A DNA stretch of 34,440 bases from Coleofasciculaceae cyanobacterium SM2_1_6. Lineage in GTDB: Bacteria; Cyanobacteriota; Cyanobacteriia; Cyanobacteriales; JAAUUE01. The stretch lies in contig JAAUUE010000006.1 in assembly GCA_012031635.1 (NCBI GenBank), positions 1-34,440 on the forward strand, given 5' to 3'. Both the position numbers and the translations under genes were made by a program. The notes below the pieces were generated by a model. The model was not told the DNA's origin, ran no database searches, and was given only the letters and a program-made list of their open reading frames with translations. Below, piece after piece: positions 1,076 to 25,544 of this stretch (positions are counted from its first letter, which is position 1; every line of letters starts with the position of its first letter).

Positions 1076-1417
1076 TTAAGGAGGTGGAAATTTACACTTG
1101 ACTTGAATTTCAAAGTTACTTTCTGCACAGGCTTTGGTGAGAATGGGCATTCCTGCTTCACCGCTAATTTTTAAGCCAAATTTAAGAGTTATTTCTTCTA
1201 CTTGCGCATCACTAAAATTTTTGAAAGCACCGATCGCATATTCTGTATAAAAGCGAATGGCTTCATGGACATCTTGTAATCTGGCGATCGCATCTTCTTT
1301 CACACCATAGGTTTCCCGCTCATTGTCAGCCTCTGGGGATGAAATTTCCTCGGATTTCCTAATTTCTAGGGTGAGAATTTCGCCATTTTCTTGTTCAACG
1401 TAAATTTTATGAGCCAT
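1076..1417 (-). CDS. Trypsin-co-occurring domain 1 (Trypco1/CU044_2847) family protein
   Basis: 113 residues beginning MAHKIYVEQENGEILTLEI, a beta-strand start, then a helix (IARLQDVHEAIRFYTEYAIGAF) and the segment QVEEITLKFGLKISGEAGMPILTKACAESNFEIQVK. The LKFGLKxSGEAGxPxLTKACAEAxFEVxVxW type ending is the signature of the CU044_2847/Trypco1 family. Established work on NTP-dependent conflict systems places these small domains beside trypsin- or caspase-like effectors and STAND ATPases, where they are thought to mediate protein-protein contact. Here the gene is divergent from a caspase-nSTAND1 gene with 87 bases between the two starts, so a shared control region is likely. The molecular role is not established. 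Confidence 0.75.
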   Translation of the reverse strand: MAHKIYVEQENGEILTLEIRKSEEISSPEADNERETYGVKEDAIARLQDVHEAIRFYTEYAIGAFKNFSDAQVEEITLKFGLKISGEAGMPILTKACAESNFEIQVKCKFPPP

Positions 1418-1504: not shown

Positions 1505-4302
1505 ATGGCTCGTTATGCTCTAGTTGTGGGGATTCCTGAATATAGTCATTTGCCTTCACCCCTGAGCAAGACCCAAGGGGATGCCGAGGCTGTTGCCAGT
1601 TTGCTGCGATTACATGGTGATTTTCAGGAAGTCACGCTCCTCAACCCCAAGAGATTAACGAAGGATGAGCTATTCAAGGAACTTGATCGACTTTTGATCC
1701 AGCAAGCGGTGGGTAGCGAAGTGCTGATCTATTACACTGGGCATGGAGTTTTAATGGAAGACTGTGGAGTAGTTAGGGGATTTTTAGCTCCTTCAAATTG
1801 TGTTTATACAAAAGAAAACGTCACTAACGGGATTCCCTTTGATAGTTTAAATCAGTTAATTGGCAAGTCTCAGTTGAGTAGTTTGGTGATGTTGTTGGAT
1901 TGCTGCCATAGCGGTTCTCTGCTCAAGTCTATAGCGAAGATTTTTACAGCTTTTAATTCGGAAAAAAATTACGCATTGATGGCGGCGTGTCGTGATTTTG
2001 AAGAGGCGGCAGCCATGAAGAAGGAACCCCACAGTATTTTTACCGGGGCATTGTTGCAAGGTTTGGCGAAAGAAAATGCCAACGATCGAGATCAGATTAA
2101 TACTAGTTTCCTCTTTGGATTTATTGAGGATCGTCTCCGGCTAACAGGTCAAGAGCCTGTCAAGCTCAGTTATGGTCAGAGCATCAAAATTGTTGATTAT
2201 CGAGCAATGCAGCCAGAGCAGCCGATCGTTGATATTTGTCCCTACGTGGGGTTGAATGCCTTTGATTTTGAGAAGGGGACGGCGGGATTTTTTAAGGGGC
2301 GCGATCGCTTTGTGCGGTTACTTTGGCAAAAACTACAGGAATCGAATTTTGTCCCGGTGATTGGGGCTTCGGGGAGTGGCAATCTTCCCTTGTCCGGGCA
2401 GGATTGGTTTCTATTCTCAAAGCTGAGGGAAATTGGCACATCTTGCCAGCCATCAAGCCGGGGGATTCCGTAACAGCTCCCATAACGGAAATCAGTCGCA
2501 TTCTCAGCCAACTTTGTCCCCGATCGGACACCAAAAAAGCCATTTACGCCCTGATTGATGCTGGGAATCTCGCTGCTGCCATCGATCGCTTACCGGGGCA
2601 AGAAAATCTGTTGTTGATCGTCGATCAGTTTGAAGAAGTATTTACCGTCTGCCCAGAAGAACAAGCCAAACAGAAATTTATTGATCTGTTGGTGGGTATT
2701 ACCCAATATCCCCAGTCTCGGTTGCGAGTGGTGACAACGATGCGGGCAGATTTCTTTGATAAGTGTCTTGCCTACCGAGCTTTAGGTACTTTGATCCAAG
2801 AGCATCAGGTGTTATTACTGCCCATGGAGCCGGACGAGTTGCAAGAAGTAATCGAGGAGCCGATCAAAGGCAAATACACCCTTGGTGAAGGCTTGCTACC
2901 AATGATTCTACGAGATATTCGCCAAGAACCAAATGTGCTGCCCTTGCTGGAGTTTGCCCTCACCCAACTCTGGGAGCAGCGTACAGACCGTTGCCTAACT
3001 TTGAGTACCTACGATGCTTTGGGGTGAGTCCTTGGGGCGCTAGATAAGCACGCCGATCGCCTCTATGAAGAGCTATCAACCTCAGAACAGGAGTGGGTTA
3101 AGCGCATTTGCCTAAAACTAGTCCGGACTGGACAGCAAGATCATCTCCAAGATACCCGCCAGCGCCGCCCCAAGGAAGAAATTTTGCAACTGGTGGGGGA
3201 GAGCGATCGACCAGCCCTAGAGGTTGTCCTAGAGCTATTGGTGCAGGAACGGCTATTGGCAACGGGGAGAGAGGGGGCAGCTTGGGTAGATATGGCTCAT
3301 GAAGCCCTGATGGAGAGATGGAAAAGATTTCAGGGCTGGCGACAAGAGCAACGAAATATCCGGTGGCTCTGCGATCGCCTTGGTGATGACTATGAAAAAT
3401 GGCTGCAAGTCCCTGACCCAGAAAAAAATAAGTTCCTGTTTCCGGAAGGGCTGGTGATGGAAATTGAAGCGGTAATCACAGAGATCAGGGAATATCTCAA
3501 CCCAGCGCAGGAAAAATACCTAGAGCAGAGCATCCACAAATACAAACCTTGGCTCAATCCAGCCAACTTCCCAGAAATGGTCGACATCCCCGCAGGACAG
3601 TTCTGGATGGGTTCCCCCGCAGGCAAAGGTGAAGATGATGAAAAGCCCTACCACCTAGTCACCCTCAAAGGATTTCGTATGGGTAAATACCCCATCACCC
3701 AAGCCCAGTGGAGCACCATTGCCCTCTCCCCTGAAATCAATCGACCTTTATATTCCTATCCTTCTCGCTTTCAAGGTGATTCTCTGCCCGTGGAGCAAGT
3801 TTCTTGGTATGAGGCTGAAGAATTTTGTGCCAGACTCTCAGACCTCACAGGAGACACCTATTATCTGCCCAGCGAAGCCGAATGGGAATACGCCTGCCGA
3901 GCCGGAGCCAAAAAATACACAGAATACTGCTTTGGGGATAGTAAAAGTAAGCTGAAAGATTATGCTTGGTTTGGTGATAATTCTAGAAATACTACGCACC
4001 CCGTAGGCGAAAAATTACCCAATGCCTTTGGTTTATATGATATGCACGGCAATATCTGGGAATGGTGCGCCGATGATTGGCACAAAAATCATGAAAAGGC
4101 TCCGGCAGATGGCACAGCATGGACGAACAATGATAATTGTTCTCAAGCAGATTATCTCACCAAAGTGCTTCGTGGTGGTTCTTGGTACAACGTTGCTAGG
4201 AACTGCCGCTCTGGGAATCGTGTTAGGGGCAATGCGGGCTACCATGACTTTAACTACGGTTTTCGGGTTGCCTGTATTTCATTTCTACCGAGGACTCTTT
4301 AA
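1505..4302 (+). pseudogene. Caspase (peptidase C14) - nSTAND1 ATPase - FGE-sulfatase protein, broken by a frameshift and a stop
   Basis: The start ATG at 1505 gives MARYALVVGIPEYSHLPSPL, the usual N-terminus of bacterial caspases. The catalytic pair is visible: His in YYTGHG and Cys in LLDCCHSG. From about residue 255 follows an nSTAND1-type ATPase (FFKGRDRF, VPVIGASGSG, Walker B LLLIVDQFEEVF, MRADFFD). The last ~250 residues are a formylglycine-generating-enzyme/C-type-lectin fold (PAGQFWMGS, PSEAEWEYACRAG, GLYDMHGNIWEWCADDW, GFRVA). Two lesions are seen. One base is missing at 2381-2382, exactly in the Walker A Lys codon (GASGSG then AA then TCT for Ser), and a TGA stands at 3025-3027 where Gly (GGA) would be expected. 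As written, only a ~323-residue caspase fragment would be made. The family is thought to act in regulated proteolysis or programmed death. The indel may be a sequence error; the stop is a substitution. Confidence 0.85.
4171..4302 (+). other. Candidate variable region (VR) of a diversity-generating retroelement
   Basis: The 3' end of the FGE-like domain reads GGSW-YNVARN-CRS-GNRVRGN-AGYHDFNY-GFRV, then ends in PRTL just before the stop. In cyanobacterial retroelement targets the same places are filled by Asn codons (AAC/AAT) in the template, and only adenines are changed. Here the corresponding codons are TAC, AAC, GTT, GCT, AAC, GTT, GGC, TAC, CAT, GAC, TTT, AAC, TAC: almost every one still ends in C or T, as expected for mutated AAY. 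The fixed parts (CRS, GFRV, the GGACTCTTTAACCC end) look like the conserved anchor. No template repeat or reverse transcriptase is present in this window, so the donor would have to lie elsewhere. Confidence 0.55.
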
Positions 4303-4466
4303 CCCTTTATTCTCTATATCCTTCTTCCTTTTCCCTCCCCCTTCGCCTTTGGCGTTGGCGCTAGCCTTGCAAAGCAAATCAAATTTTTTTTTCACCCCCC
4401 CGTCTATAGAGAACAGATTTCAACGACCCTCAGTCCTCGCATTGAAAGTATCTTCAGCATCTTGCT

Positions 4467-4826
4467 ATGATAAAAATAAATCGAACAGCGATCGCCATGA
4501 CTCCTCTAGAAATCGAACGTCAATTTCTCAATTTATCTCCCTGCGATCGAGCAGCAATGGTGCAAAGCCTAATCAAAACTCTCAGCATCGGTGGCAAGGG
4601 CATCACCAAAACTAACGGGGTTTGTGGGGGAGAGGCTTGTATTGCCGGAACCCGTATTGCTGTTTGGCTATTGATCGAAGCGCAACAACTAGGTATCACT
4701 GAAGCTCAGTTATTACAAGACTATCCTCACATTACTGCTGCAGATCTCGTTAATGCTTGGGCGTATGCCGACGCTTATCCCGAAGAAATTGCTGTAGCAA
4801 TTCATGCCAATAATGAGGTAGCCTAG
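4467..4826 (+). CDS. DUF433 antitoxin
   Basis: 119 residues. The N-terminal half is a helical piece (EIERQFLNLSPCDRAAMVQSLI) and the C-terminal half is a classic DUF433 domain: GVCGGEACIAGTRIAVWLL, LGITEAQLLQDYPHITAADL, AWAYADAYPEEI. DUF433 proteins are winged-helix antitoxins that pair with PIN-like DUF5615 toxins. The next gene, three bases after the stop, is exactly such a toxin, so the two form an operon. Two starts are possible: ATG 4467 (used here) and ATG 4497, which gives the more family-like beginning MTPLEIERQ; neither has a clear Shine-Dalgarno. The product probably represses its own promoter, as type II antitoxins do (inference). Confidence 0.85.
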   Translation: MIKINRTAIAMTPLEIERQFLNLSPCDRAAMVQSLIKTLSIGGKGITKTNGVCGGEACIAGTRIAVWLLIEAQQLGITEAQLLQDYPHITAADLVNAWAYADAYPEEIAVAIHANNEVA

Positions 4827-4829
4827 CCA

Positions 4830-5171
4830 ATGGCTCGATTGTATGCAGACGAACAATTTCCCAGAGAAGTCAGCAGACTACTTCAGTTTATGGGACATGA
4901 TATTTTAACAGTGCAAGAAGCTGGCAACGCCAACTTGGGCATTCCTGATGAGGAAGTATTAGCTTTTGCTATTAGCAATAATCGTGCAGTTGTCACCCTC
5001 AACCGCCAAGATTTTAACCGTTTGCATCGTGCTAATTCTCAACATTTTGGGATTATTACCTGTACTAACGATAGCGATCGATCCCGAATGGCAAACCAGA
5101 TCGACAAAGCGATCTCCACTCATCAATCCTTAACAGGCAAGTTAATTAAAGTTGTTCGTCCCGCATCCTAG
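4830..5171 (+). CDS. DUF5615 family PIN-like toxin
   Basis: 113 residues. It starts MARLYADEQFPREVSRLLQF, carrying the N-terminal Asp-Glu of the PIN-like fold, followed by GHDILTVQEAGNANLGIPDE, then NNRAVVTLNRQDFNRLH with the second acidic position, then HFGIITCTND. These are the hallmarks of the DUF5615/Mut7-C-like PIN nucleases, expected to cut RNA with metal bound by the acidic residues. It begins three bases after the DUF433 antitoxin stop, giving a complete type II-like toxin-antitoxin pair. It is full length for the family and looks intact. Confidence 0.88.
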   Translation: MARLYADEQFPREVSRLLQFMGHDILTVQEAGNANLGIPDEEVLAFAISNNRAVVTLNRQDFNRLHRANSQHFGIITCTNDSDRSRMANQIDKAISTHQSLTGKLIKVVRPAS

Positions 5172-5267: not shown

Positions 5268-6009
5268 TCAGAACGACAATGGGTTTAGGAGCGGTTGATT
5301 CACCAAATCCCTAAGTTCCACCGCTTGGAGAATACTTGCCCACTGGGGCAACGGCTGATTTCTCTGTAGTTGCGCCAGCAAAGCCACCGTATCATACCAA
5401 ATGCCCGCCCTACTCAAAAGTTCTGCCCGCTCGATCGCTGACATCCCCTGCAAAACCCTCGGTGATAGTTCCGGCGGAGTAGCCACTCTCTGGATCAAGC
5501 CATCCGCAACAATATCTTTGCTGCGATCGTTCCTTTGACAAATGATGGCAACCGACCAAATGTAACTTTTATTTAGCTCCAGACCCTGAAACCCAGAACT
5601 TTCTGGCAGAGAAATACTGGCAATCCCACTCCGACCATCGCCATTAAATCTAGTTAAGTAAATATCATTCCCAGCCAAATCACGCAGCACAAACTCGATC
5701 AGGGGCGGCGGCAGACCCTCTGGCATGGCTGGCAAATAAAATGAAAAATTAGGGTGAGATTTAATCGTTACCCCCAAAGGCATTCAGGGGAACTATCCCT
5801 ACCATCGGTGGGGAGTTTTCAGAAATTGGACACCCATAGGGCGATCGGGTTCCCGCCGGGCGGGTGCGTTCCGGAGTACCAACCTCCCTAGGGGGTTGAT
5901 AATTACCATTATTCCACTGGGCTAGCCCCGGAGCCGTCAAAGCACCAAAAAAGCAACTAGTCAGCCCCACCAGTAATAGCCGTTGGCAGGTTTGGGAAAG
6001 CAGAGTCAT
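5268..6009 (-). CDS. DUF928 exported protein, copy 1 (frameshifted as written)
   Basis: Starts MTLLSQTCQRLLLVGLT with a signal peptide ending near GLAQWNN, then the DUF928 pattern GTPERT...GCPISENSP, VPLNAFG, and in the next frame VTIKSHPNFSFYLP, SSGFQGLELNKSYIWSV, AIICQRNDRS, GIWYDTVALL, LQAVELRDLVNQPL. It matches copy 2 (6212-6979) along its whole length at roughly two thirds identity by eye. A run of five C (plus strand 5771-5775) holds one base too many: four would join NAFG directly to VTIKSHP. So this is either a one-base sequence error or a recent inactivation. DUF928 proteins are exported cyanobacterial proteins of unknown function. With copies 2 and 3 it forms a tandem family. Confidence 0.8.
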
Positions 6010-6211
6010 AAATATTATCCCTTGGGTTTGGATTGTGTTCGTGGGAGAAATTAAGAATCTGGATTAATTATCTAAAAAAACTGAGGCTCTAGGCAGTTCC
6101 TAAATCAAACTTCGATCGAGATGCTGACTAGAACCTAAGCAAACTCCTTTGCCCTCGTTCGACTGCGGGTACTCTGGCAAACTGGGAACTATTGATAACC
6201 CAAACTGGCAA

Positions 6212-6979
6212 CTAAGTATTAGGAACCCTCGCTGGGGTAGTAGAACTTCTGCCATCTAGTAGTGGTTGATTGATTAAATCTAGGAGTTCTACCGCCTGAA
6301 GAATATTTGTCCATTGGGTCAGGGGACGTTGGCGGTGAATTTCGGCTATCAACGCCACAGAATCATACCAAATACCAGCTCTGCTGAGGATTTCAGCCTC
6401 CTCAACTACCGATTTACCTTCCAAGGCACTAGGGGATAACTCCGGGGGAACCGCCACCCGCTGGATCAAACCTTCGGTGACAATATCTCTGCCTCGATCG
6501 TTCATTTGACAAATGATGGCAACCGACCACCGATAATCTTTATTCAGTTCCAAACCCTTGACCCCAGAACTTTCTGGCAGGGAAATACTGGCAATCCCGC
6601 CCTGACCATCGGTATTAAATCTGACTTTGTAAATATCATTGTCATCCAAATCCCGAATCACAAACTCCACCGGGGGAGGCGTTGCTCCCGCCGTCATCGT
6701 TGGTAAATAGAACAAGAAAGTCGGATGAGACTTGAGGGTCACTCCAAAGGTATTGTTGGGGACTACCGCCACCAGCGAGGGCGAAGTTTCCGCCACTGGA
6801 CACCCACGAGTACCCCTAGTCGCGCCTGACTGGGTACGGGTAGGAGTGCCGACATTCCCACTGGGGCGATAACTTCCACCATTCCACTGGGCTAGACTCG
6901 GCGCTGCCAGAGAACCTAGACACAAACTGGTAAGCCCGGCTAAGAATAACTTTTGGTAGGGTCGGAAAATCCTAGACAT
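6212..6979 (-). CDS. DUF928 exported protein, copy 2
   Basis: 255 residues, intact. It has an N-terminal signal peptide (MSRIFRPYQKLFLAGLTSL, small residues LAAPSLAQW at the likely cleavage site), then a Gly/Thr/Arg-rich linker, GCPVAETSP, and the DUF928 core: FGVTLKSHPTFLFYLPTM, PVEFVIRDLDDNDIY, GIASISLPESSG, YRWSVAIICQMNDRGRD, RAGIWYDSVALIAEI, ILQAVELLDLINQPLL. It probably acts in the periplasm. DUF928 genes are often found near TPR, CHAT/caspase and CHASE2 genes, and two caspase homologues are nearby, but no function is known. About 200 bases separate it from copy 1, and another ~220 separate it from copy 3, so the copies may have their own promoters. Confidence 0.85.
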   Translation of the reverse strand: MSRIFRPYQKLFLAGLTSLCLGSLAAPSLAQWNGGSYRPSGNVGTPTRTQSGATRGTRGCPVAETSPSLVAVVPNNTFGVTLKSHPTFLFYLPTMTAGATPPPVEFVIRDLDDNDIYKVRFNTDGQGGIASISLPESSGVKGLELNKDYRWSVAIICQMNDRGRDIVTEGLIQRVAVPPELSPSALEGKSVVEEAEILSRAGIWYDSVALIAEIHRQRPLTQWTNILQAVELLDLINQPLLDGRSSTTPARVPNT

Positions 6980-7201
6980 AATTTTGCTCCTTGTATATTT
7001 TGTAAGGTTTTGAGTTTGTATTTGGCTTTTAGGGTTTATTTTTAGACTGATTTTTCTCTAATAGAACTTAGACGAGGGTAAAAGGGAACTAGTAGATAGG
7101 GAACGAGGGACAAGAATAGAAAACTAGCAGTATTTGAGAATAATTTTAGTTGCCCAAGAACTGGGAGGAACTCTCAGAAATTCCAGCAATTCTCAGGAAT
7201 T

Positions 7202-8233
7202 TTACTGATCAGCACTAGAGGCCCTCAAGGAGATGGTTTGCTGAGCAATTTGTTCCAAGCCTACGGAGTTGAGTAGAGCCGCCCAGATAGCCTCAGTATT
7301 TTCTTCCTCTATCCTCGCCCCAACTTCCGGATTTAGAGGGGTAAGTACAGGGCTAGCTGTACCATTCGTTTGACTCGTCTGGCTAGGCTGGCGATCGGGC
7401 TGGAGACTAATCACCGAGGCAAGGGTTTCATACCAAAGACGAGCATTGGCATAGATAAAAACCTTCTCTGGAGGATTAGCTTGTTGGATTTGGGCTTGGA
7501 GGTCTGGATTGGATAGTAGACGCTGGACATAACCAGTGGTGTGCAAGTCACGAGTCCGATTATTGATGTCACAAATCAATGATACTTCCCATCGATAAAT
7601 ACTGCCCACTGTTAAGGGCTGAATCCCCACCTGATGAGGAATTTGCAAGCTCATCACCTGACCTTTTTCTGCTGGTACTGACCCTACAGGGGCTGGGGCG
7701 GGTTCTCCTTGGGTAGAACTGAGTTGAGGTTGAGAAAAAGCCGATCGAGCCAGAGTTGAGTTGCCCGGATTGAGAGCATACTGAACAGCATAGATTTCTT
7801 CGTCATTTTCATTAAACAGAATAAATTCCACCGCCTCCGCTAGGTTGGGGGGCATATACCAAGAAATTTGGGGGTAAGGTTCTTGAGTGATGCCAAAACC
7901 AGACGGGGGCACAAGGGCTGTGGGTGGGGGCAGGGCTGGGTTGATACAGTTCCCGCCGGGGTTCCTGCGTCCGCCACTCTGGGTACTCCGGGGCGAGCCA
8001 ATATTCCGGGGGGGGCGAAAATCACTCTGCTCCCACTGGTCGGGGATGCGTCTCGATCGATTGGCATTATTTTGTCCAGAGGCGATCGAGAGCATAGAGA
8101 GAAGGAAAACGATCGACACTACCGGGATCATCACCAAATTGCGACGACGGAGACCAAAAAGTCCGGGCAAGATTTGCAGATCACAGGGAAATTGATAATG
8201 GCCAGATGGCGGCTGTTTCTTGGGCATAGTCAT
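7202..8233 (-). CDS. DUF928 exported protein, copy 3 (long form)
   Basis: 343 residues. The N-terminus is longer and basic (FGLRRRN) before the hydrophobic export segment LVMIPVVSIVFLLSMLSIAS, so it may be a signal anchor. The DUF928 core follows: FRPPRNIGSPRSTQSGGRR, FGITQEPYPQISWYMPP, EAVEFILFNENDEEIY, YRWEVSLICDINNRTRD, YANARLWYETLASVI. Relative to copies 1 and 2 it has an insert of about 30 residues rich in Ala/Pro/Gly, and a longer Gln/Thr/Pro-rich C-terminal insert, so it diverged earlier than the 1/2 duplication. ATG at 8233 and at 8227 are both possible starts. Function unknown; exported location is inferred from the leader. Confidence 0.82.
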   Translation of the reverse strand: MTMPKKQPPSGHYQFPCDLQILPGLFGLRRRNLVMIPVVSIVFLLSMLSIASGQNNANRSRRIPDQWEQSDFRPPRNIGSPRSTQSGGRRNPGGNCINPALPPPTALVPPSGFGITQEPYPQISWYMPPNLAEAVEFILFNENDEEIYAVQYALNPGNSTLARSAFSQPQLSSTQGEPAPAPVGSVPAEKGQVMSLQIPHQVGIQPLTVGSIYRWEVSLICDINNRTRDLHTTGYVQRLLSNPDLQAQIQQANPPEKVFIYANARLWYETLASVISLQPDRQPSQTSQTNGTASPVLTPLNPEVGARIEEENTEAIWAALLNSVGLEQIAQQTISLRASSADQ

Positions 8234-8331
8234 AACTTCGGCTCAGCAGAATTGAAATTTACTTTTTCTCTACTTTTTTCTAGCGGTACTTTTCTTTAGC
8301 AGGAAAATCATTCAGGAGTGAGACAAGGAAA

Positions 8332-8419
8332 CTATAGCAGTCCTAAAGGATTTCACCCGACGGGTAGCATAACCTCCTAGCAGCAATCTAATTTAGAAAA
8401 TGATTTAGGATCGCTATAT
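8332..8419. repeat. MITE-like palindromic repeat, copy A
   Basis: Starts CTATAGCAGTCCTAAA and ends TTTAGGATCGCTATA, imperfect terminal inverted repeats of about 15 bases. An inner short palindrome ACCCGACGGGT and an AATCTAATTTAGAAAATGA segment are shared with a second copy at 16517-16610. There is no coding capacity. It is likely a non-autonomous element mobilised in trans (inference). Confidence 0.75.
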
Positions 8420-8420
8420 C

Positions 8421-8446
8421 TTGAACTTGGGCATTGAACTTGGGCA
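8421..8446. repeat. Two direct copies of a 13-base unit
   Basis: TTGAACTTGGGCA occurs twice in a row, directly after the MITE-like repeat. It is followed 22 bases later by ten consecutive G. Confidence 0.8.
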
Positions 8447-8835
8447 TTAAATTTGTGTAGATGCTTTAGGGGGGGGGGTTAAATAAATCATCAAAAAGTC
8501 TACTCAAATACATTTATATCAGAGGTATTTATGCATCAAGGAGAGAAAGTTGATCAGAATTAATATAGTTTTGATTAATGACGTTTTCTTCAACAAACTT
8601 TGTTGCTAAATCTCTGGGATAAATCTATGATAAGCAAATTCAAGCAAAACACCTTATTTACAGACTTTAACCCCAAATTAATCTCAGCATTAGTCCAAAC
8701 ACAGTAATTGCGTAATTATTACAATTATCCAGATTTAATGATCCAGAATAAGCAATCTGAGAACAATTAGGGTTACCTCTAGGTTTGAATGTGACTTAGG
8801 TATGGTTTATGTATACTCCTTCATCTCAATGAACT

Positions 8836-10533
8836 ATGATTCCCGAATCCACCTCTGGGCAAAATCTCCAGCAAAATCTCCAACAAAATTTCCGTAGGAC
8901 GATTCGACCCATCGGGGTAGCAGCTTTACATGGTATTGCCACCTGGGCAGGCAAATTAATTGCCCTTGATACTGTTAATGGCTATTTGCTAGAGATTGAC
9001 CCTACTACAGACAACACAAAAATCTTAAATCCTCAAAGGGATACGGATCTTTTGGATGCCAAGGGTTTAGCGATCGCCGGAGATACTCTCTGGTTAACTA
9101 AGCAAAATACCGTATATTCCAGTTCCCTGACTGGAGATTTGCTGTGGGATCCCTTTGTCCGCCTTGCCTACACAGCCGACGGAGTAGCCGTGGTGGATTC
9201 GACAGTATACATTACCTCCCAGAAAATTGGTTATATCCTCATTTTTAGTCGCTTCACCGGTAAGGAAGTAGCTCGATTTCCCCTGCCGGGAGTAGGGGTG
9301 GAAAATATCACAGTGTGGGGTGAAGAAATTTGGCTCTCGGATACGGTGGAGCAGACGGTGTATTGCCTCGATCGAGCCACCGGGGAAGTAAAGTTTAATA
9401 TCCTGACTCCCTTTGAATCACCCACGGGCTTGACTTTCTTTTCAGACCCAACCACCGGAGAATCGTTATTATATATTGCCTACTCCTTCCGCCAGCCCTA
9501 CCTCCGAGACAACCCCAACGCCGAACCCAACTACGAACTCCAGTACCGGGACTGCACCTTCATCCATCCCCTTGCCTACCACTACGATCAAGCCCGCCGG
9601 ATGGTCCGCTCCAATGGCTATCTCTTGGAAATGTCCTACATTGAAGAACTAGCTCCCCTAGAAGATGTGGAACTCAAGGATGTGGAATGGCGGATTGCCA
9701 TGCCTGCGGAGACCGATCGCCAAAAACTGCGCCAAATATCTCCCGTAGGAGTTCCCTTTACCGAAGAAGTCCAAAATGGGCAACGGGTCGCTGTATTTAA
9801 GTTTCCCCACCTCAAGCCCGGCGAGCGGCATATTTTTGGTTGGAAGGCTCTCCTCGAAGTTTGGAGTATTAAATACCAACTCAAGCCCAAGGATGTGGAA
9901 TCTCTGCCGCCTTTATCCGCCGAGTTTCAGAATCGTTACTTGATTGATGATGATGATTTGTCCATGGGGACGGAGATTATCCAGAGAGCGGCGCGGGAAG
10001 CGATCGGGCGAGAAACCAATCTGCTGCGGAAAATGTACAGTATTCGGAACTATGTGTACGACAAACTTTCCTACGGGATCAAGCCCCACATTGATACCCC
10101 GGATGTGGCTTTAGCGAGGGGCGTGGGTTCCTGCGGAGAATACTTGGGGGTACTGCTGGCTCTAGCTCGCTTAAATGGCATTGCCTGTCGCACGGTGGGT
10201 CGCTACAAATGCCCCGCCCAGCCAGACCTAATTGGTGTGCCTCTAGAGCCAGATTTTAACCATGTGTGGATGGAGTTTTATGTGCCGGGCTTTGGCTGGC
10301 TGCCCATGGAGTCGAATCCTGATGATGTTGTGGATGGGGGCCCCTATCCCAGTCGGTTCTTTATGGGGTTATCTTGGTACCATGCGGAAATTGGGAAAGG
10401 GATTACTTTTGAAACCTTAACCAGTGAAGGATTACCTGTTGCTAAGGAGAAAGCTTCGATCGGGGATTTGGCAATTAACCATGTCCGGTTTACCATTCTC
10501 CAAGAGTTACAACCAAGCAAAGTTGCTAGTTAA
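8836..10533 (+). CDS. Beta-propeller / transglutaminase-like domain protein
   Basis: 565 residues. Residues ~25-250 look like a YncE/NHL-type propeller with repeated short motifs (HGIATWAGKLIALD, LAIAGDTLWL, ADGVAVVDSTVYI, ENITVWGEEIWLSD). The C-terminal third is a transglutaminase-like (papain-fold) core: the Cys at about residue 433 in GVGSCGEYLGVLLALARLNG, followed by IACRTVGRY, the His at about 476 in NHVWMEFYVPGFGW, and the Asp at about 496 in MESNPDD. All three catalytic positions are kept, so a cysteine protease, transglutaminase or amidase activity is possible; the substrate is unknown. I see no signal peptide. A divergent cation-transporter homologue follows 26 bases after the stop, so the two are probably one operon. 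Confidence 0.82.
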   Translation: MIPESTSGQNLQQNLQQNFRRTIRPIGVAALHGIATWAGKLIALDTVNGYLLEIDPTTDNTKILNPQRDTDLLDAKGLAIAGDTLWLTKQNTVYSSSLTGDLLWDPFVRLAYTADGVAVVDSTVYITSQKIGYILIFSRFTGKEVARFPLPGVGVENITVWGEEIWLSDTVEQTVYCLDRATGEVKFNILTPFESPTGLTFFSDPTTGESLLYIAYSFRQPYLRDNPNAEPNYELQYRDCTFIHPLAYHYDQARRMVRSNGYLLEMSYIEELAPLEDVELKDVEWRIAMPAETDRQKLRQISPVGVPFTEEVQNGQRVAVFKFPHLKPGERHIFGWKALLEVWSIKYQLKPKDVESLPPLSAEFQNRYLIDDDDLSMGTEIIQRAAREAIGRETNLLRKMYSIRNYVYDKLSYGIKPHIDTPDVALARGVGSCGEYLGVLLALARLNGIACRTVGRYKCPAQPDLIGVPLEPDFNHVWMEFYVPGFGWLPMESNPDDVVDGGPYPSRFFMGLSWYHAEIGKGITFETLTSEGLPVAKEKASIGDLAINHVRFTILQELQPSKVAS

Positions 10534-10559: not shown

Positions 10560-11430
10560 GTGGCAAATCGGCTGCCAAAGAGTCGTATGTTCCTATTGGG
10601 GATACTCTGGCTGAGTTTATTAATTTTGTCAGTGAAAGTTGCAGTAGCTTGGACGACTCGATCGATTAGCCTCGGAGCGATCATTCTTCATACCCTAGTC
10701 ACTCAGTTTAGTATGCTACTCAATCTGCTGGCGAGCCTGAAACCTCCAGAGTACCAACGCTTTCAGGTAGAAGGGCATAGCTATCCAGAGACTCTGCTGA
10801 GTCTGGGATTGGGGATGGGGTTGGGGAGTGGCTCTGTTTATCTGGGGTCGATCGCCGTACCCCGATTATTTGGTTTAGTCCCGCCGCCGATTCCCCTCCA
10901 GTTAACCCCTCTACTCTGGCAATGTCTAGGGGTAATTTTCCTGAGTCAGGTATTTTATTGGCGGTCAATATCTACCAAACTAAGCGGAAACACCATCGGT
11001 TTTTGGGTTTTACGAATATTTGCTTAGTAAATGACCTCTGGATCACAGCGTTGGGAATCCTTTGTGTATTTTTCTTGGTGCAGGGAAATCTTGTCCCTGA
11101 TGCTCTGAGTGCGCTCCTCTTTAGTATTGTGAGTATGATTGACTTTTGGTTAGTGCTTCAGTGGCAGTTGCCTTTTTGGTCTGCCAGACAGCGATCGCCC
11201 CCGAAGCCCTTGCCCAGATTGCTTATTCCGTGGGCGGAGTCACCCTCTGTACCAATATCGACTCTAAAGGAATCGTAGGTCGATCGGTTTATATAAAAAT
11301 GACCATTATGATTCATCCCGGAGTCTTGGGTTACGAATCCGTAATTGCCGAACGCATTGAAAACGCCCTCAAGGAACGCTATGGTCTTGTTTCTGTCACC
11401 ATTCACATCAGCCCTCCACCCCATTCCTAA
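10560..11430 (+). CDS. Divergent cation diffusion facilitator (CDF)-like membrane protein (frameshifted as written)
   Basis: A GTG start at 10560 has GGGAGG nine bases upstream. Three successive frames together give one CDF-like protein of about 290 residues. Frame one has hydrophobic segments and the GHSYPETL that stands where CDF proteins have GHGRAE. Frame two has DLWITALGILCVFFLVQG and ALLFSIVSMIDFWLVLQ. Frame three has the cytoplasmic dimer domain (APEALAQIAYSVGGV, ESVIAERIENALKERYG, VSVTIHISPP). One base appears lost near the T run at 11000-11004 and one near 11173-11177. The Asp pairs that bind metal in TM2 and the His/Asp of TM5 seem absent (HTLVTQ; VNDLWIT), so it may not transport metal even if intact. 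The assignment rests on overall layout. Confidence 0.6.
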
Positions 11431-13544: not shown

Positions 13545-15605
13545 CTAGGGAGATTTTTTTCCTTGTTGCCACAAAGCTATTGTTGTTTGGGCTTGAGTGT
13601 ATAAAGGAGTATTTTCTGGTAAGAAGGCAGCGGCGGCGATCGCTCCTTGAAAATCACCCCTACTTGCTCGCTGCTGAGCCATCTGCCAAATTTCCAAACT
13701 CCAGGTATTAATCAATTCTTGGGCGAGTTCGTAGCCCGGTTGTCCGGCGGGAATAGCCTTGTTTGTATCAATGGCTTGGCGATAGGAGTTGGCTTGATTG
13801 GGACGAATTAATCGTCTTGCCTTTTGAATTTGTTGGAGATTCACATCCCGTTGTTGGATCAATTGCTGCCAGCGACTAATCCAAGTCTGGGCATCTCGAT
13901 AAATAGCTTGATTAACGGGAGGAATGGTTTGCGCCGTGCTAATTGCCCCAGTCCAGTCGCCAGAGGTCGATCGACCATGCGCCAGATCCATGATCACCGT
14001 ACTCCACCGAGCAATATCCGCCTGAGCTTGTTTATACAAAGGGTCTGTGGGTTGGACTTGACTGGCGACTTGAATGGCTTGGCTAAATTGGGTGGCTTGA
14101 TCGCTCCGCAGCAGGCTTCTAGCACTTTCTAGGGTGACTTGGTTAGCCTGTTGCCTGTTTAAGGTTAAGGCCGGAGCGGCGGGATTAGTCACTGCGGGAG
14201 AGGGAACTGCTGGGGAGCTAGGGGCAATGGGAGTAGGGGAAGTTGCCGTGGCTGGGGAAACCGTGGGGCTGGGGGCAGTGGTGGGAGCAGGGCTAGGAGC
14301 CGCCGGACTAGGTGCAGTTGCGGTGGTGGGGGCGGGACGTGGGAGGCCGCAGGGCTAGGGGAAGTCGCCGTAGTCGGCGCAGTGGTGGGAACGGGCGGCA
14401 ACCCCGGAGAGACTGAGGGCGAAAGGGTCGGGGTAGCGATCGGGCCCGATTGTCCATCCCCAAGGAAAGCATCAAGGTTCCGCCAGAGGACTCCAAAGAC
14501 CATCAACAGAAACAGCAAAGTTGCACCACCAATCCACGGGAGGGCAGAATTAGAATTATCTTTTTTAGCCATAGATTTTGATTTTTTTGTGGGGGGATTA
14601 TCGGTAGATTTAGGGGGGGGAATCAGTAGTCGAACTAGCGGCTACATCGGCAGCAGGGGTAGTTCCGGGCTGAATTTTGGTATTGGGGGGCTGGATAGCG
14701 GTGCGTTCTGGTTGAATTTTGGTTTTTGCTTTAATAATTTTACTAGGGGGAACTTCAGGGGTGTCAGTACCCGATCGATAGCGGATCGGGTTAGGAGGAT
14801 GACTATCTAAACCATTTGCCCCCACCGCAGCCACAGCAGGAGGACGCTTGCCATTTTTAGAAAAGTTTTTGGCGGGCAGAATTAATTCTTCGAGGTCAGC
14901 AGTTTTGGCAAATTGCATCAGGGGATGCTGGGGAGGTGTGCCGTGGTGATTTCCCAATTCTGGCAAACGATCGACCAAGTACCGCCCCAGAGTTTGTAAA
15001 GTCAATTGCTGACGATGGTAGGATAGAGCCTCTCCCAAGGCTTGGGCAAATAATCCCCGTCCCAATTCTCGGCGCTCGTAGGAGCATTCTTGATTGCTCA
15101 CCGACTGGATCAAGTTTATATCTAATTCCTGGGCTAATTGACTAAACTGACTCCCCACCGGAGTTCCAGTCCCCAAGCCGGGAGAGCGATGGATATCGAG
15201 GAGGAGTAAAACTTGTTTGCCCTGTTGTTTCAGGCTCGTGAGGAGAGTTTCGGCACTAATTGCTTGCTGGGGAAGAGCCTCAAGACTGCCATCCATGGGT
15301 AATAGATAATCTTCGCCCCGCCAATGGACTCCATGCCCACTAAAAAAACACCAGAGCCAGTCTGAGTTTTCTAGGGCTGGGGGCAGGGAACTCAGTAAAT
15401 TAGTTAAATTGGCATAACTAGGATGAGCTGGTCGATCGACCACAGGAGGAGCCGCCTCGGTTGCTAACAGACAATTCTCCCGTGGCACCCCCAATTCTTC
15501 GACTAGAAACTTGACTAGTCCCTGGGCATCAGCCTCGGCGTGGCTCAGTGGTTCAACAAACTGATAGCGATTTATGCCAACTGCAATACAACCGTAATTT
15601 GTCAT
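13545..15605 (-). CDS. Membrane-anchored caspase homologue without catalytic Cys, fused to repeat region (frameshifted as written)
   Basis: Starts MTNYGCIAVGINRYQFVEPL, a C14 caspase fold. The catalytic His is kept (CFFSGHGVHW), but the place of the catalytic Cys reads LLLLDIHRSPG instead of DCCHSG, so it should be proteolytically dead. A Pro/Thr linker follows, then a transmembrane helix (WIGGATLLFLLMVFGVLW), a second Pro/Thr/Ala linker, and ~190 residues of helical repeats (LARQ/A-type units such as GDWTGAISTAQTIPP and GDFQGAIAAAAFLPE). Three reading frames must be joined: a run of eight G on the plus strand (14613-14620) is one too long, since seven lead straight into KSTDNPPTKKSKS before MAKKDNSN, and three G at 14341-14343 are one too few. 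Both are in homopolymers, so one ~686-residue gene is likely. Confidence 0.75.
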
Positions 15606-16516: not shown

Positions 16517-16610
16517 CTATAGCAGTCCTCAAGGATTTCACCCGCCGCCGGCGGGTGGAACAACCGACCATAAGCAATCTAATTTAGAAAATGATTTAGG
16601 ATTGCTATAG
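16517..16610. repeat. MITE-like palindromic repeat, copy B
   Basis: Starts CTATAGCAGTCCTCAAG and ends TTTAGGATTGCTATAG. It shares the flanks and the AAGCAATCTAATTTAGAAAA core with copy A (8332-8419). The inner palindrome differs (CCCGCCGCCGGCGGG instead of ACCCGACGGGT). An extra AGCAATCTAAT lies just before it (16503-16513). Confidence 0.75.
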
Positions 16611-16716
16611 ACTTGAATATTAGAGAAAACATCCAATTAAGTTATGTATAAACTAAATTTTGAACATCCAAAATATACAATGTAAGATTCATAAGATGAT
16701 GCCTAGGATATGAATT

Positions 16717-22232: not shown

Positions 22233-22625
22233 TTAAGGAACTACGGCAATACATTCGATTTCTACTAAGACATCCTTAGGGAGGCGGGCCACTTCGACGG
22301 TGGCTCTGGCGGGGGCTTGTCCTTCGGTGAAATAAAGAGCATAGACGGCATTCATGGCGGGAAAGTCTTCCATATTTTTGAGAAACACCGTAGTTTTCAC
22401 CACTTCCTGCCAACCAGTGCCGCCAGCTTTGAGTACCGCCGTGAGATTGTGCATTACTTGTTCCGTTTGCTTGGTTACATCTCCCGTACCAATGATTTCT
22501 CCACTCAGGGGATCGAGGGGAATTTGTCCCGCCGTAAATAGGAGTTTGCCGGTAGAAATAATGGCTTGATTGTAGGGGCCAACGGGGGCGGGGGCTTGGT
22601 CAGTACGGATAATTTGTTTGGTCAT
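22233..22625 (-). CDS. ridA: RidA family enamine/imine deaminase
   Basis: 130 residues starting MTKQIIRTDQAPAPVGPYNQ, the classical RidA N-terminus. It is followed by LLFTAGQIPLDP, TEQVMHNLTAVLKAGG, VVKTTVFLKNMEDFPAMNAVY and the signature ARATVEVARLPKDVLVEIEC with the Arg that binds the substrate carboxylate. RidA hydrolyses reactive enamine/imine intermediates, such as 2-aminoacrylate, released by PLP enzymes. The start codon ATG overlaps the stop TGA of the upstream PEP-synthase-like gene (ATGA), so the two are translationally coupled. An in-frame extension upstream to 22736 exists but lies inside that gene and is not expected to be used. It is full length. Confidence 0.95.
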   Translation of the reverse strand: MTKQIIRTDQAPAPVGPYNQAIISTGKLLFTAGQIPLDPLSGEIIGTGDVTKQTEQVMHNLTAVLKAGGTGWQEVVKTTVFLKNMEDFPAMNAVYALYFTEGQAPARATVEVARLPKDVLVEIECIAVVP

Positions 22626-25056
22626 AGATTCAAATTGCGGGCTAGATTTAATAACAGTTTTTGTTCGGCTTGATGGATCGATCGCTGCACCTGCTCTAGG
22701 GCGGGGACATCTACAGAAATGGAAGTAATTCCCCACCGCACCAGTTGCTCCACCAACTCAGGATAGTTTACCGGAGCTTGACCACAGATGGAACAGGGAA
22801 TATTTAATTTCCGAGCCGTGGTCACTAGTTGCTCCATCACCGCCACCATTGCCGGATGCCCGGCATTGAGCATACTCGTCCCGCCCTGGTCTCGATCGAT
22901 CCCCAAAATTAACTGGGTGAGGTCGTTGCTACCAATGGAAATCCCCTGGACTCCTGCTTTTACATAATCCTCCAACAGAAAAATCACCGAAGGCACTTCC
23001 GCCATGATCCACAACTGGAACTGGGGCTGGGCTGACAGCCCCACGGCTTGAACACGTTGGCGACAAAACTTAAATTCCTCCACCGTCCGCACAAAGGGCA
23101 GGAGCAGAGAAATATTGCCATAGCCCCGGCGCTGGACTTCTCGCAGAGCTGCCAACTCCCAGTCAAATAGCTGCGGATTGAGGGTATAGCGGAGGGTACC
23201 CCGTCTGCCGAGGACGGGATTTGCTTCTGGGGGTTCTTGGGTGTAGAGGGTGGGAAATTCGGTCGATCGCCAGTCCGCCGATCGATAAAATACAGGACGG
23301 GGAGCAAAGGCTGCGGTAAACTCCGTGATCTGATCCGCAAGGTTGGTAATCACCTGTTGGGCAACCAGAGGCAGCTGATTAGTCTGTTGAGCGATGAAAC
23401 CCAAGCGATTAATTTCTTGGAAGTTATCTAAATTGTGGTTGTGGAGAATCTCCGAGAGGATGAGTTCCGATCGCAACAATCCCACCCCATCAAAGGGCAA
23501 CTGCGCCGCCGTCAAAACTTTTTGGGGCTGACTCAGGTTCACCATCAACTTCGTCCCGGTGATGGGATTTCCCCAGCGGTCTTTTCTAGGGGCGGGGATT
23601 TCTGAGGGGCGGGGGTTTTCTGTCAGGGGTACTAATTTTGGGGCAATCTCTCCAACACCTGACCCGACTGCCGATAGACAATTCCCTGATCGCCATCGAG
23701 GGTTAAATCTTCCCCCGTTTGAATCAACTGGGTTGCCGCCGTCACCCCCACCACCGCCGGAATCCCCAACTCCCGGGCAATGATCGCTCCATGACTAGTC
23801 ATCCCCCCCTGCTCGGTGATAATCCCCGCCGCATCTCTCAGCAAAGGCAACCATTCCGGCAACACGATCTCCGCCACCAGGATTTTCCCGGACAAACCCA
23901 GAGGTTGAGCAGGAGCCTGAGTCAAGAGCCGAGACGCTGTTCCCTCATTTTCCTTAACTTTGCCATGCTCATAACCCTCCCGAAGATTCCCCAAGGCAGC
24001 CCCCACAACTATAACTTGGGCAGTTCCCCTAGCTTCCCCCCGGGCTACTCCCACCCCCTGCAAAGGTGCGAGGGCATTCACCACTCTACCTTGGGAAATC
24101 CGGGGTGCAAAACTCCTAATGGCTAGATGGGAGAGATGGGAGTTTTCAGGAGGTGAAATCTGCCAAGTCAAGCTAAAGTGAGGCATGATCATTTTCTGGA
24201 TTTGCTTACAAATTTGGCTGAGGCGGGCGAGATCCTCCTTAGAGAGGCTGTAGCTTTGTTGTTGGCTGGGACTGAGGAGGTAGGGGGTCAAGCATTCTAG
24301 GGGACTGGATTCTAGACTTGGTAAATTTAGATGGTAGCCCCGGGTTTTTGAGCCTAACTGTTGTTTGAGGACAATCTCTGACTGGGGGTGAATGGTGTAG
24401 CGATCGGGCAGGACTTCCCCTCGATCGATGGCAAAGGGAAATCCCCACGTTGACTCAATGCATAACTGCTCCGGCTGCGCTGCCACCGTCCCTGAGGCGA
24501 TCGTCTCCCCCAAGGGCTGTACCAACACCGCCAGATTTACCTGAGATAGTTTCAAGCCTGTCTGCCGCCAACAAAACAAATGATGCGCCCGAAACAATTG
24601 CCCCCAGACCTGCTTCAGCCCCGCCATCACCGCCTCAGACTGTGCTGGACAAACTACCGTTTCGAGAATCTCCGCTGGAGCCGGAAACCCTTCATGCTGT
24701 AAAAAAGGCTGCAAGATTACCAAGGGTGTAGAGATTTTTTGTAGTTGCTCCGTCAGAGCTTCTAGCCAAAAGGCGGGGGGACTGCCTTGGAGGATGCGGC
24801 GGCGCAGTCTTTGGGCGACATCCCGTAACTGGCGAGACTGATGCACATCCAAATGCAGATCAGAATCATGGAGATCCGCCAAAAGAACCTCTGATTCTCC
24901 CAAAACTTCGAGGTATTGCCACAGCACATCCCCCGGCAACACAAAACCATTCACCACTGGGTAGCCGTGGCGGTGGAGTTGACTTAAATAAAACGCCTGA
25001 TCTCGGTAGGGGAAGTTTTCTCCCAAGGATTGATCTAGCCAGTACAAATTATCCAC
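22622..25056 (-). CDS. Phosphoenolpyruvate synthase-like protein (frameshifted as written)
   Basis: About 811 codons. The swivelling phosphohistidine domain has the active His in GGMTSHGAIIARELGIPAVVG. The C-terminal PEP/pyruvate barrel keeps GVGLLRSE, FYRSADWRSTEFPTL, the basic start LGRRG, IGSNDLTQLILGIDRD and ICGQAP with its catalytic Cys. The N-terminal ATP-grasp part is unusual: the normal RSSATAED and FAGQ motifs are missing (STPLVILQPFLQHEGFPAP stands there), so nucleotide binding is doubtful. A one-base loss in a four-G run (plus 23640-23643) splits the frame after ERLPQ; five would give ERLPPKLVPLTENP, which continues unbroken to the barrel. It is coupled to ridA by an ATGA overlap. 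It could convert pyruvate and PEP, or be a regulatory paralogue. Confidence 0.8.
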
Positions 25057-25544
25057 TACGCATTATCGGTTTGAGTTTAACTATGGTCAGTTCACTCGAT
25101 CGGTGCAATCTCAACAATCAACACATAATTAAAATCTGTCAAAAAGAAGTTATCAAAAAAAGGTACTGAAAGCCTTAATCTAATTGCTTTAGGAATAATT
25201 GTCTAGGGTATTTGGCTAAAAAAATTATTTTCTTGGATATCAGGCTTCCTTAACTCTCAGCAACTCTCGGCTTAGTTATCGGCTTAACATACTCCCCTAG
25301 CTAAAGCGAGAGGATTCTCCCAACATCACTAGACCTCTTGCGTGAATCATGACCCTAACCCTAAATCCCTCTCCCTAGGGAGAGGGACTTTCCTCTTACT
25401 CCCCTTCTCCCTGGGGAGAAGGGGCTGGGGGATGAGGGGCTTTTTCCTTATTCACGCAAGGGGGCTACTGTTTGGGATTTCTGGGTAATCATTAATATCC
25501 TGAACTACTTAACCATCAAGCCGACCCTAAACCCAGCTGTCAAT
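25057..25544. other. Intergenic region with a repeat
   Basis: About 490 bases without a gene. It is AT rich in its left half, where the promoter of the PEP-synthase-like gene should lie, and carries a repeat with inverted ends at 25337-25460. Confidence 0.5.
25337..25460. repeat. MITE-like repeat with CTTGCGTGAAT ends
   Basis: CTTGCGTGAAT at the left and ATTCACGCAAG at the right are perfect inverted copies. Between them are CTCTCCCTAGGGAGAG (a perfect palindrome) and CCCCTTCTCC-ctgg-GGAGAAGGGG, with telomere-like CCCTAACCCTAAAT before them. No reading frame is present. It lies downstream of the branching enzyme gene. Confidence 0.75.

Follow-up and report, generated by a model that had tools for sequence, protein, structure and literature searches.

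Can a hypervariable protein segment be traced to a retroelement at a distance from it, and if so is that retroelement still at work? The question is raised by the 3′ end of a gene of Coleofasciculaceae cyanobacterium SM2_1_6, located in the 34,440 nt of contig JAAUUE010000006.1 (assembly GCA_012031635.1) that were analysed and are here called the window. Diversity-generating retroelements (DGRs) make adenine-directed errors in the reverse transcription of a template RNA, and the resulting cDNA, guided by a homing signal, replaces a variable region (VR). A preliminary description of the window had proposed that positions 4171-4302 are such a VR at the 3′ end of a domain like that of formylglycine-generating enzymes (FGE), and that the gene is a target served in trans.

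The gene has the domain order of STAND-type sensors, with an effector (Peptidase_C14), a STAND NTPase (nSTAND1) and a sensor (FGE-sulfatase), and the VR is at the 3′ end of the C-type-lectin/FGE part, as in DGR variable proteins (coordinates in Table 1). Its start at 1505 (MARYALVVG) was placed by alignment with intact homologues of 925-933 aa from Phormidium tenue FACHB-1050, Pseudanabaena SR411 and Pseudanabaena FACHB-1998, and the His-Cys dyad of the caspase is present (His at GHG 1739, Cys at DCC 1898). Modelled with AlphaFold2, the FGE domain resembles both PvdO (5hha; TM 0.80) and TvpA of Treponema denticola (PDB 2y3c; TM 0.79), a DGR variable protein with the FGE-type C-type-lectin fold, and to judge from the model the likeness to formylglycine-generating enzymes is one of fold. 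Sequence identity between the window FGE domain and TvpA is 28%. To our knowledge, the solved TvpA chain includes neither caspase nor NTPase.

Table 1. Features of the sensor gene and its divergent neighbour (positions in the window)
Feature	Position	Strand	Evidence
Trypco1 (trypsin-co-occurring domain 1) protein, divergent neighbour of the sensor gene	1076..1417	-	Pfam PF19493 E=2e-18
Sensor gene start: Peptidase_C14 caspase, then start of nSTAND1	1505..2383	+	Pfam E=5.5e-19
Frameshift, one base missing in P-loop (GGCAA-TCT), near 2383	2380..2386	+	Comparison with L036 GASGSGKSSL
nSTAND1 NTPase domain, second frame	2386..3024	+	Pfam PF20703 E=1.8e-50
In-frame TGA stop	3025..3027	+	Frame reading, comparison with intact homologues
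FGE-sulfatase / C-type-lectin-fold domain	3571..4272	+	Pfam PF03781 E=3.4e-54; AlphaFold2 pLDDT 87
Constant 5′ anchor RGGSW of the VR	4171..4185	+	Nucleotides identical in congener G001; conserved in relatives
DGR VR variable block, 24 codons, 20 NNY	4186..4257	+	Codon bias, TR columns, homologue comparisons
3′ constant part GFRVACISFLPRTL and stop, with GAGGACT 4290-4296	4258..4302	+	41/45 nt common to congener G001 VR gene
CCCTTT tail typical of cyanobacterial VR flanks	4303..4308	+	67/144 VRs, 0/21 TRs

The divergent Trypco1 neighbour recurs in six further loci, namely L036, L037, L038, L040 and L041 of Pseudanabaena/Phormidium and contig C316 of the same genome. Directly downstream of the sensor gene are DUF433 and DUF5615 genes (4467-5171), likely a toxin-antitoxin pair, and beyond them three consecutive DUF928 genes (5268-8233, minus strand). 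A short interspersed repeat at 25328-25471 is 92-98% identical to pieces of contigs C448, C201 and C281, and repeats at 16520-16616 and 8335-8418 recur on C316, C448 and C102 (74-85%). Rfam and tRNA scans of the window gave no match.

Read in the FGE frame, 4171-4302 translates as RGGSWYNVARNCRSGNRVRGNAGYHDFNYGFRVACISFLPRTL with a stop at its end, and the anchors GGSW, CRS, GFRV and PRTL named in the preliminary description are there, all four of them. The excess of codons ending in C or T (NNY) that it reported is real: they account for 20 of the 24 codons of the variable block (83%) versus 50.8% of the 329 upstream codons in the same frame (binomial P=0.001), the remainder of the block being two AGG, one GGG and one GCG. 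For comparison VRs and template repeats (TRs) were gathered from 100 related genomes and 77 named loci, with 18 bona fide TRs of the same length from relatives serving as the TR reference. At the ten columns that are AAC or AAT in at least 89% of these 18 TRs, 10 of the 10 window codons are NNY (P about 0.001), and it is at these columns that residue entropy across 99 VRs reaches 3.0-3.5 bits, the anchors having mostly less than 0.8 bits (maximum 1.3). Within the variable block of one Calothrix NIES-4105 VR (L056 at 10607) there is a tandem expansion, with a DFGNY unit repeated.

The 3′ end of the window VR, GAGGACTCTTTAACCCTTT, agrees with the VR-type homing signal of relatives. The codons of the PRTL anchor spell GAGGACT, and the CCCTTT that comes next is found after 67 of 144 VRs of relatives and after none of 21 TRs. 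In pairs from the same genome the base ahead of ACT is usually a purine in the VR (GAGGACT, GAGAACT) and T or C in the TR (AGTACT, AGCACT), and TRs continue into a conserved spacer with GTCAGA. This contrast, seen on contig C316 as GAGGACT in the VR versus GAGTACT in the TR and likewise in relatives, is not absolute, the TR of L247 having GAGGACT. VR 3′ flanks are alike, pyrimidine-rich tail first, at window 4303-4400, on contigs C448, C258, C287 and C203, and on C89 of the congener G001; most of them have a CGCCTYTGGCG hairpin and then a T run, terminator-like, some 40-60 bp past the homing signal.

Comparison of sister genes is in keeping with this. Over the 335 codons that precede the block the homologues at L036 and L038 are 82% identical, but within it identity falls to 38% (P=5e-6), and their differences at codon positions 1/2/3 number 12/10/4 in the block versus 40/29/70 upstream (P=0.001). 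The VR gene on C89 of G001 has a different N-terminal part from the window gene; the two differ at 216 of 576 nt in the upstream FGE part and at 4 of 42 nt after the block (P=1.6e-4), with 13/10/7 differences at positions 1/2/3 in the block versus 60/53/103 upstream (P=0.018). Such low divergence after the block despite different N-termini is as expected if related templates overwrote the cassette. Change is concentrated at positions 1 and 2 of codons that are AAY in templates, as in DGR variable proteins, and homologues do not share the same residues, so on this score, as on the VR at the 3′ end of an FGE domain and the caspase fusion known from other cyanobacteria, to which the Pfam matches and the TvpA-like fold model lend support, the preliminary description has held up.

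Where, then, is the template? A single true TR turned up in the genome: it lies on contig C316 (L166) at about 6190-6320 of the minus strand, N-rich at the variable columns and continuing into a spacer, GTCAGAACTGG, common to other cyanobacterial TRs. It was found via a protein search of FGE paralogues; a genome search with the window VR itself missed it and returned only a sister FGE gene. About 345 bp separate it from the sister gene of caspase-nSTAND1-FGE type that it follows (6663-9589, minus strand), itself with two frame changes, and all 8 body mismatches between this TR and the neighbouring VR fall on template A, the ninth difference being the homing-signal base (G in the VR, T in the TR; P=2e-5). 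Since TR and VR agree at all non-A body sites, copying must have been recent there, and the enzyme present recently or still. No reverse transcriptase (RT) is found at this locus, and between target and TR, where relatives keep the enzyme, there are only some 345 bp. As the template of the window VR the C316 TR was rejected, 32 of 99 sites differing, 13 at A and 19 elsewhere, and a reconstructed window-VR template searched against the genome found nothing better; in this incomplete genome, that is, no TR matches the window VR at non-adenine sites. TRs of Pseudanabaena-type genomes were similarly rejected as templates for the L036 and L040 homologues. In the congener G001 VR genes are present and no template was detected.

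The search for the enzyme used a profile of eight cyanobacterial DGR RTs; among 100 related genomes, 18 yielded 22 matches between them at E<1e-170. With it no DGR RT was found in the window's genome (G000, 87% complete) or in G001 (95% complete). The best score in the former was 97 bits, for the enzyme on C102 only, and G001 had no match; the C102 enzyme, the one RVT_1 match of the genome, was rejected as a DGR enzyme for scoring far below real ones, and its best NCBIfam match, at 293.7 bits a little short of the cut-off of 300, is to group II intron RT/maturase. A single-sequence search (E<10) added two short stretches, on C115 and C21, that match the C-terminal tail of the RT (SLPSWFAHLAHAHTWYLHQRIA versus SLQSWVAHLEHGDTWRLRQAIF) and may be relics of the enzyme. 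The tail concerned is SLPSWFAHLAxxHTWYLxQR, and each match (L210, C115:3052-3183, minus; L211, C21:5412-5492, plus) overlaps in opposite orientation with the 3′ end of a Uma2-like gene, the two such genes being paralogues. Because VR/TR repeats break assemblies and the genome is incomplete, in 449 contigs of which C201 ends inside a VR, the RT and the correct template may merely be missing from the assembly, and their absence is unproven. What the preliminary description foresaw, a template repeat beside an RT elsewhere in the genome, was thus encountered in part: a TR is there, with an A-only changed VR as its neighbour, while a template matching the window VR and a DGR RT, the latter in the congener also, are not found, and as far as these two go the finding is the one it had said would tell against it. 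Service in trans thus gains no support from these searches, and the gene itself is broken in this assembly.

The window gene is not one open frame in the assembly, a point absent from the preliminary description. A frameshift leaves the Walker A P-loop of the NTPase without the intact single frame of a STAND-type sensor, possibly through assembly error, and a nonsense codon follows. Among the testable FGE genes of this genome 6 of 10 are broken versus 2 of 38 other conserved genes (P=4e-4), a count that is suggestive and short of proof, and the FGE genes are also longer than average; in G001 none of 29 conserved genes tested is broken. The two broken non-FGE genes are, by names given from sequence reading, PilB (96% identical to G001) and PilC (91%), on C253 (L227 14840-19617). 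In the window itself there are further apparent frameshifts in a PEP-synthase-like gene (22233-25056, minus) and in a second caspase gene that has a proline-rich linker (13545-15605, minus), which together hint at frame damage throughout the assembly. Assembly error is a live alternative because unrelated genes show such damage, and for the same reason the breaks were rejected as proof of pseudogenisation. The homologue at L037, from a Pseudanabaena frigida MAG, also looks broken, its frame running uninterrupted for no more than about 73 codons ahead of its VR near 11063; no DGR enzyme was detected in that genome either.

On balance we consider it probable that 4171-4302 is a genuine DGR variable region, now orphaned as a remote target on a caspase-nSTAND1-FGE sensor. 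In the past a cDNA made from a template repeat, with mutations at its adenines, would have homed at the VR-type signal GAGGACT and rewritten the region, and the signature of the region points to such retrohoming. The whole protein would have acted like a STAND immune sensor, recognition of a ligand by the hypervariable lectin face leading to oligomerisation of the NTPase and so to activation of the caspase, and Trypco1 is a likely partner; that the lectin face senses and the caspase is the effector is proposed after the systems described elsewhere (PMC10907252, PMC7159879). The target is taken to be orphaned because template and DGR RT were not found; given this, the P-loop frameshift and the stop, the VR probably no longer diversifies and the product may no longer be made whole. 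The machinery seems to have been lost rather than left unassembled.

That last point is where the best surviving alternative parts company. It holds, somewhat improbably to our minds, that a complete cassette of RT and matching template in the unassembled part of the genome still rewrites the VR in trans, the lesions being assembly errors. Incomplete and fragmented as the assembly is, with a contig ending inside a VR and frame damage in other genes as well, this has its attractions: copying at C316 was recent, remote targets are common in cyanobacteria (PMC7517822) and trans activity has been proposed for other bacteria (PMC10907252). However, the more complete congener has VR genes and yet no detected RT or template, the C316 interval is without the RT that relatives have there, and broken frames are relatively more frequent among FGE genes than among the other conserved genes. 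It is decidedly improbable that the RT was lost in the genus and that about eleven diversified FGE genes have been kept by selection as fixed sensors, for while VR genes without a detected enzyme are retained by both genus members, no conserved G001 gene tested is broken and Anabaena PCC 7120 offers a parallel in remnant TR-VR homology without RT (PMC7517822), most testable FGE genes of the present genome are broken in the assembly and the match of the C316 TR to its VR suggests recent, not old, loss. Least probable of all, and already strongly disfavoured, is ordinary fast divergence or positive selection of a loop in FGE paralogues with a bias to C/T-ending codons, since although no template in the genome matches the window VR and the scaffold is common to FGE-fold enzymes without DGRs, the C/T rate rises from 51% in the gene to 83% in the block, the variable columns fall on the template adenine columns of 18 real TRs, a VR-type homing signal and, in the same genome, a real TR/VR pair are present, and sister genes are conserved upstream and not in the block.

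The orphaned remote target has relatives among known systems. Caspase-fused remote DGR targets have been described in cyanobacteria (2020, PMC7517822), and the window gene resembles them in its C-terminal C-type-lectin/FGE domain with 3′ VR, its N-terminal caspase and the position of its VR away from an RT. Those are tied to their template by TR/VR homology, whereas the window VR is without matching template or enzyme and its frame is broken; the same study found remnant TR/VR homology in Anabaena PCC 7120 with no RT nearby. The DGR-diversified STAND conflict systems of Thiohalocapsa PB-PSB1, a setting in which DGR loci that are degenerate have been described and activity in trans proposed (Dore et al. 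2024, PMC10907252), similarly combine an nSTAND1 NTPase with a C-terminal FGE-type lectin carrying a VR, with machinery missing or pseudogenised at the loci. Unlike them, the window protein has the caspase fused in the same chain, and no complete cassette is seen in the assembly. Trypco1 owes its definition to trypsin-like neighbours (Kaur et al. 2020, PMC7159879); as in those conflict systems it here adjoins a peptidase-sensor gene, and FGE domains are tied to DGRs in the cyanobacterial ones, but the neighbour in the window is a caspase-nSTAND1-FGE protein. Caspase-fused remote targets are thus already known; more unusual is that both genus members seem to be without the enzyme while there is a template that still matches its target. 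One survey says of itself that remote targets escape it (PMC8144416). A sequence rule, the VR-type GAGGACT with CCCTTT tail versus the TR-type GAGTACT with GTCAGA spacer, could flag orphan VRs without template in fragmented genomes that RT-first surveys pass over.

Beyond the single orphaned target, it is a tentative thought, and a doubtful one, that the genus has lost its DGR RT yet retains about eleven dispersed diversified caspase/STAND/FGE genes, a frozen and decaying ‘immune repertoire’ viewed just after the loss. The timing is suggested because the C316 template still matches its VR and because of the possible RT-tail relics on C115 and C21. That sensors with a death effector carry DGR targets is so far a prediction, and a genome with template and targets and no detectable RT bears on their fate: it would show what becomes of a hypervariable sensor set once diversification stops, whether fixed sensors or loss.
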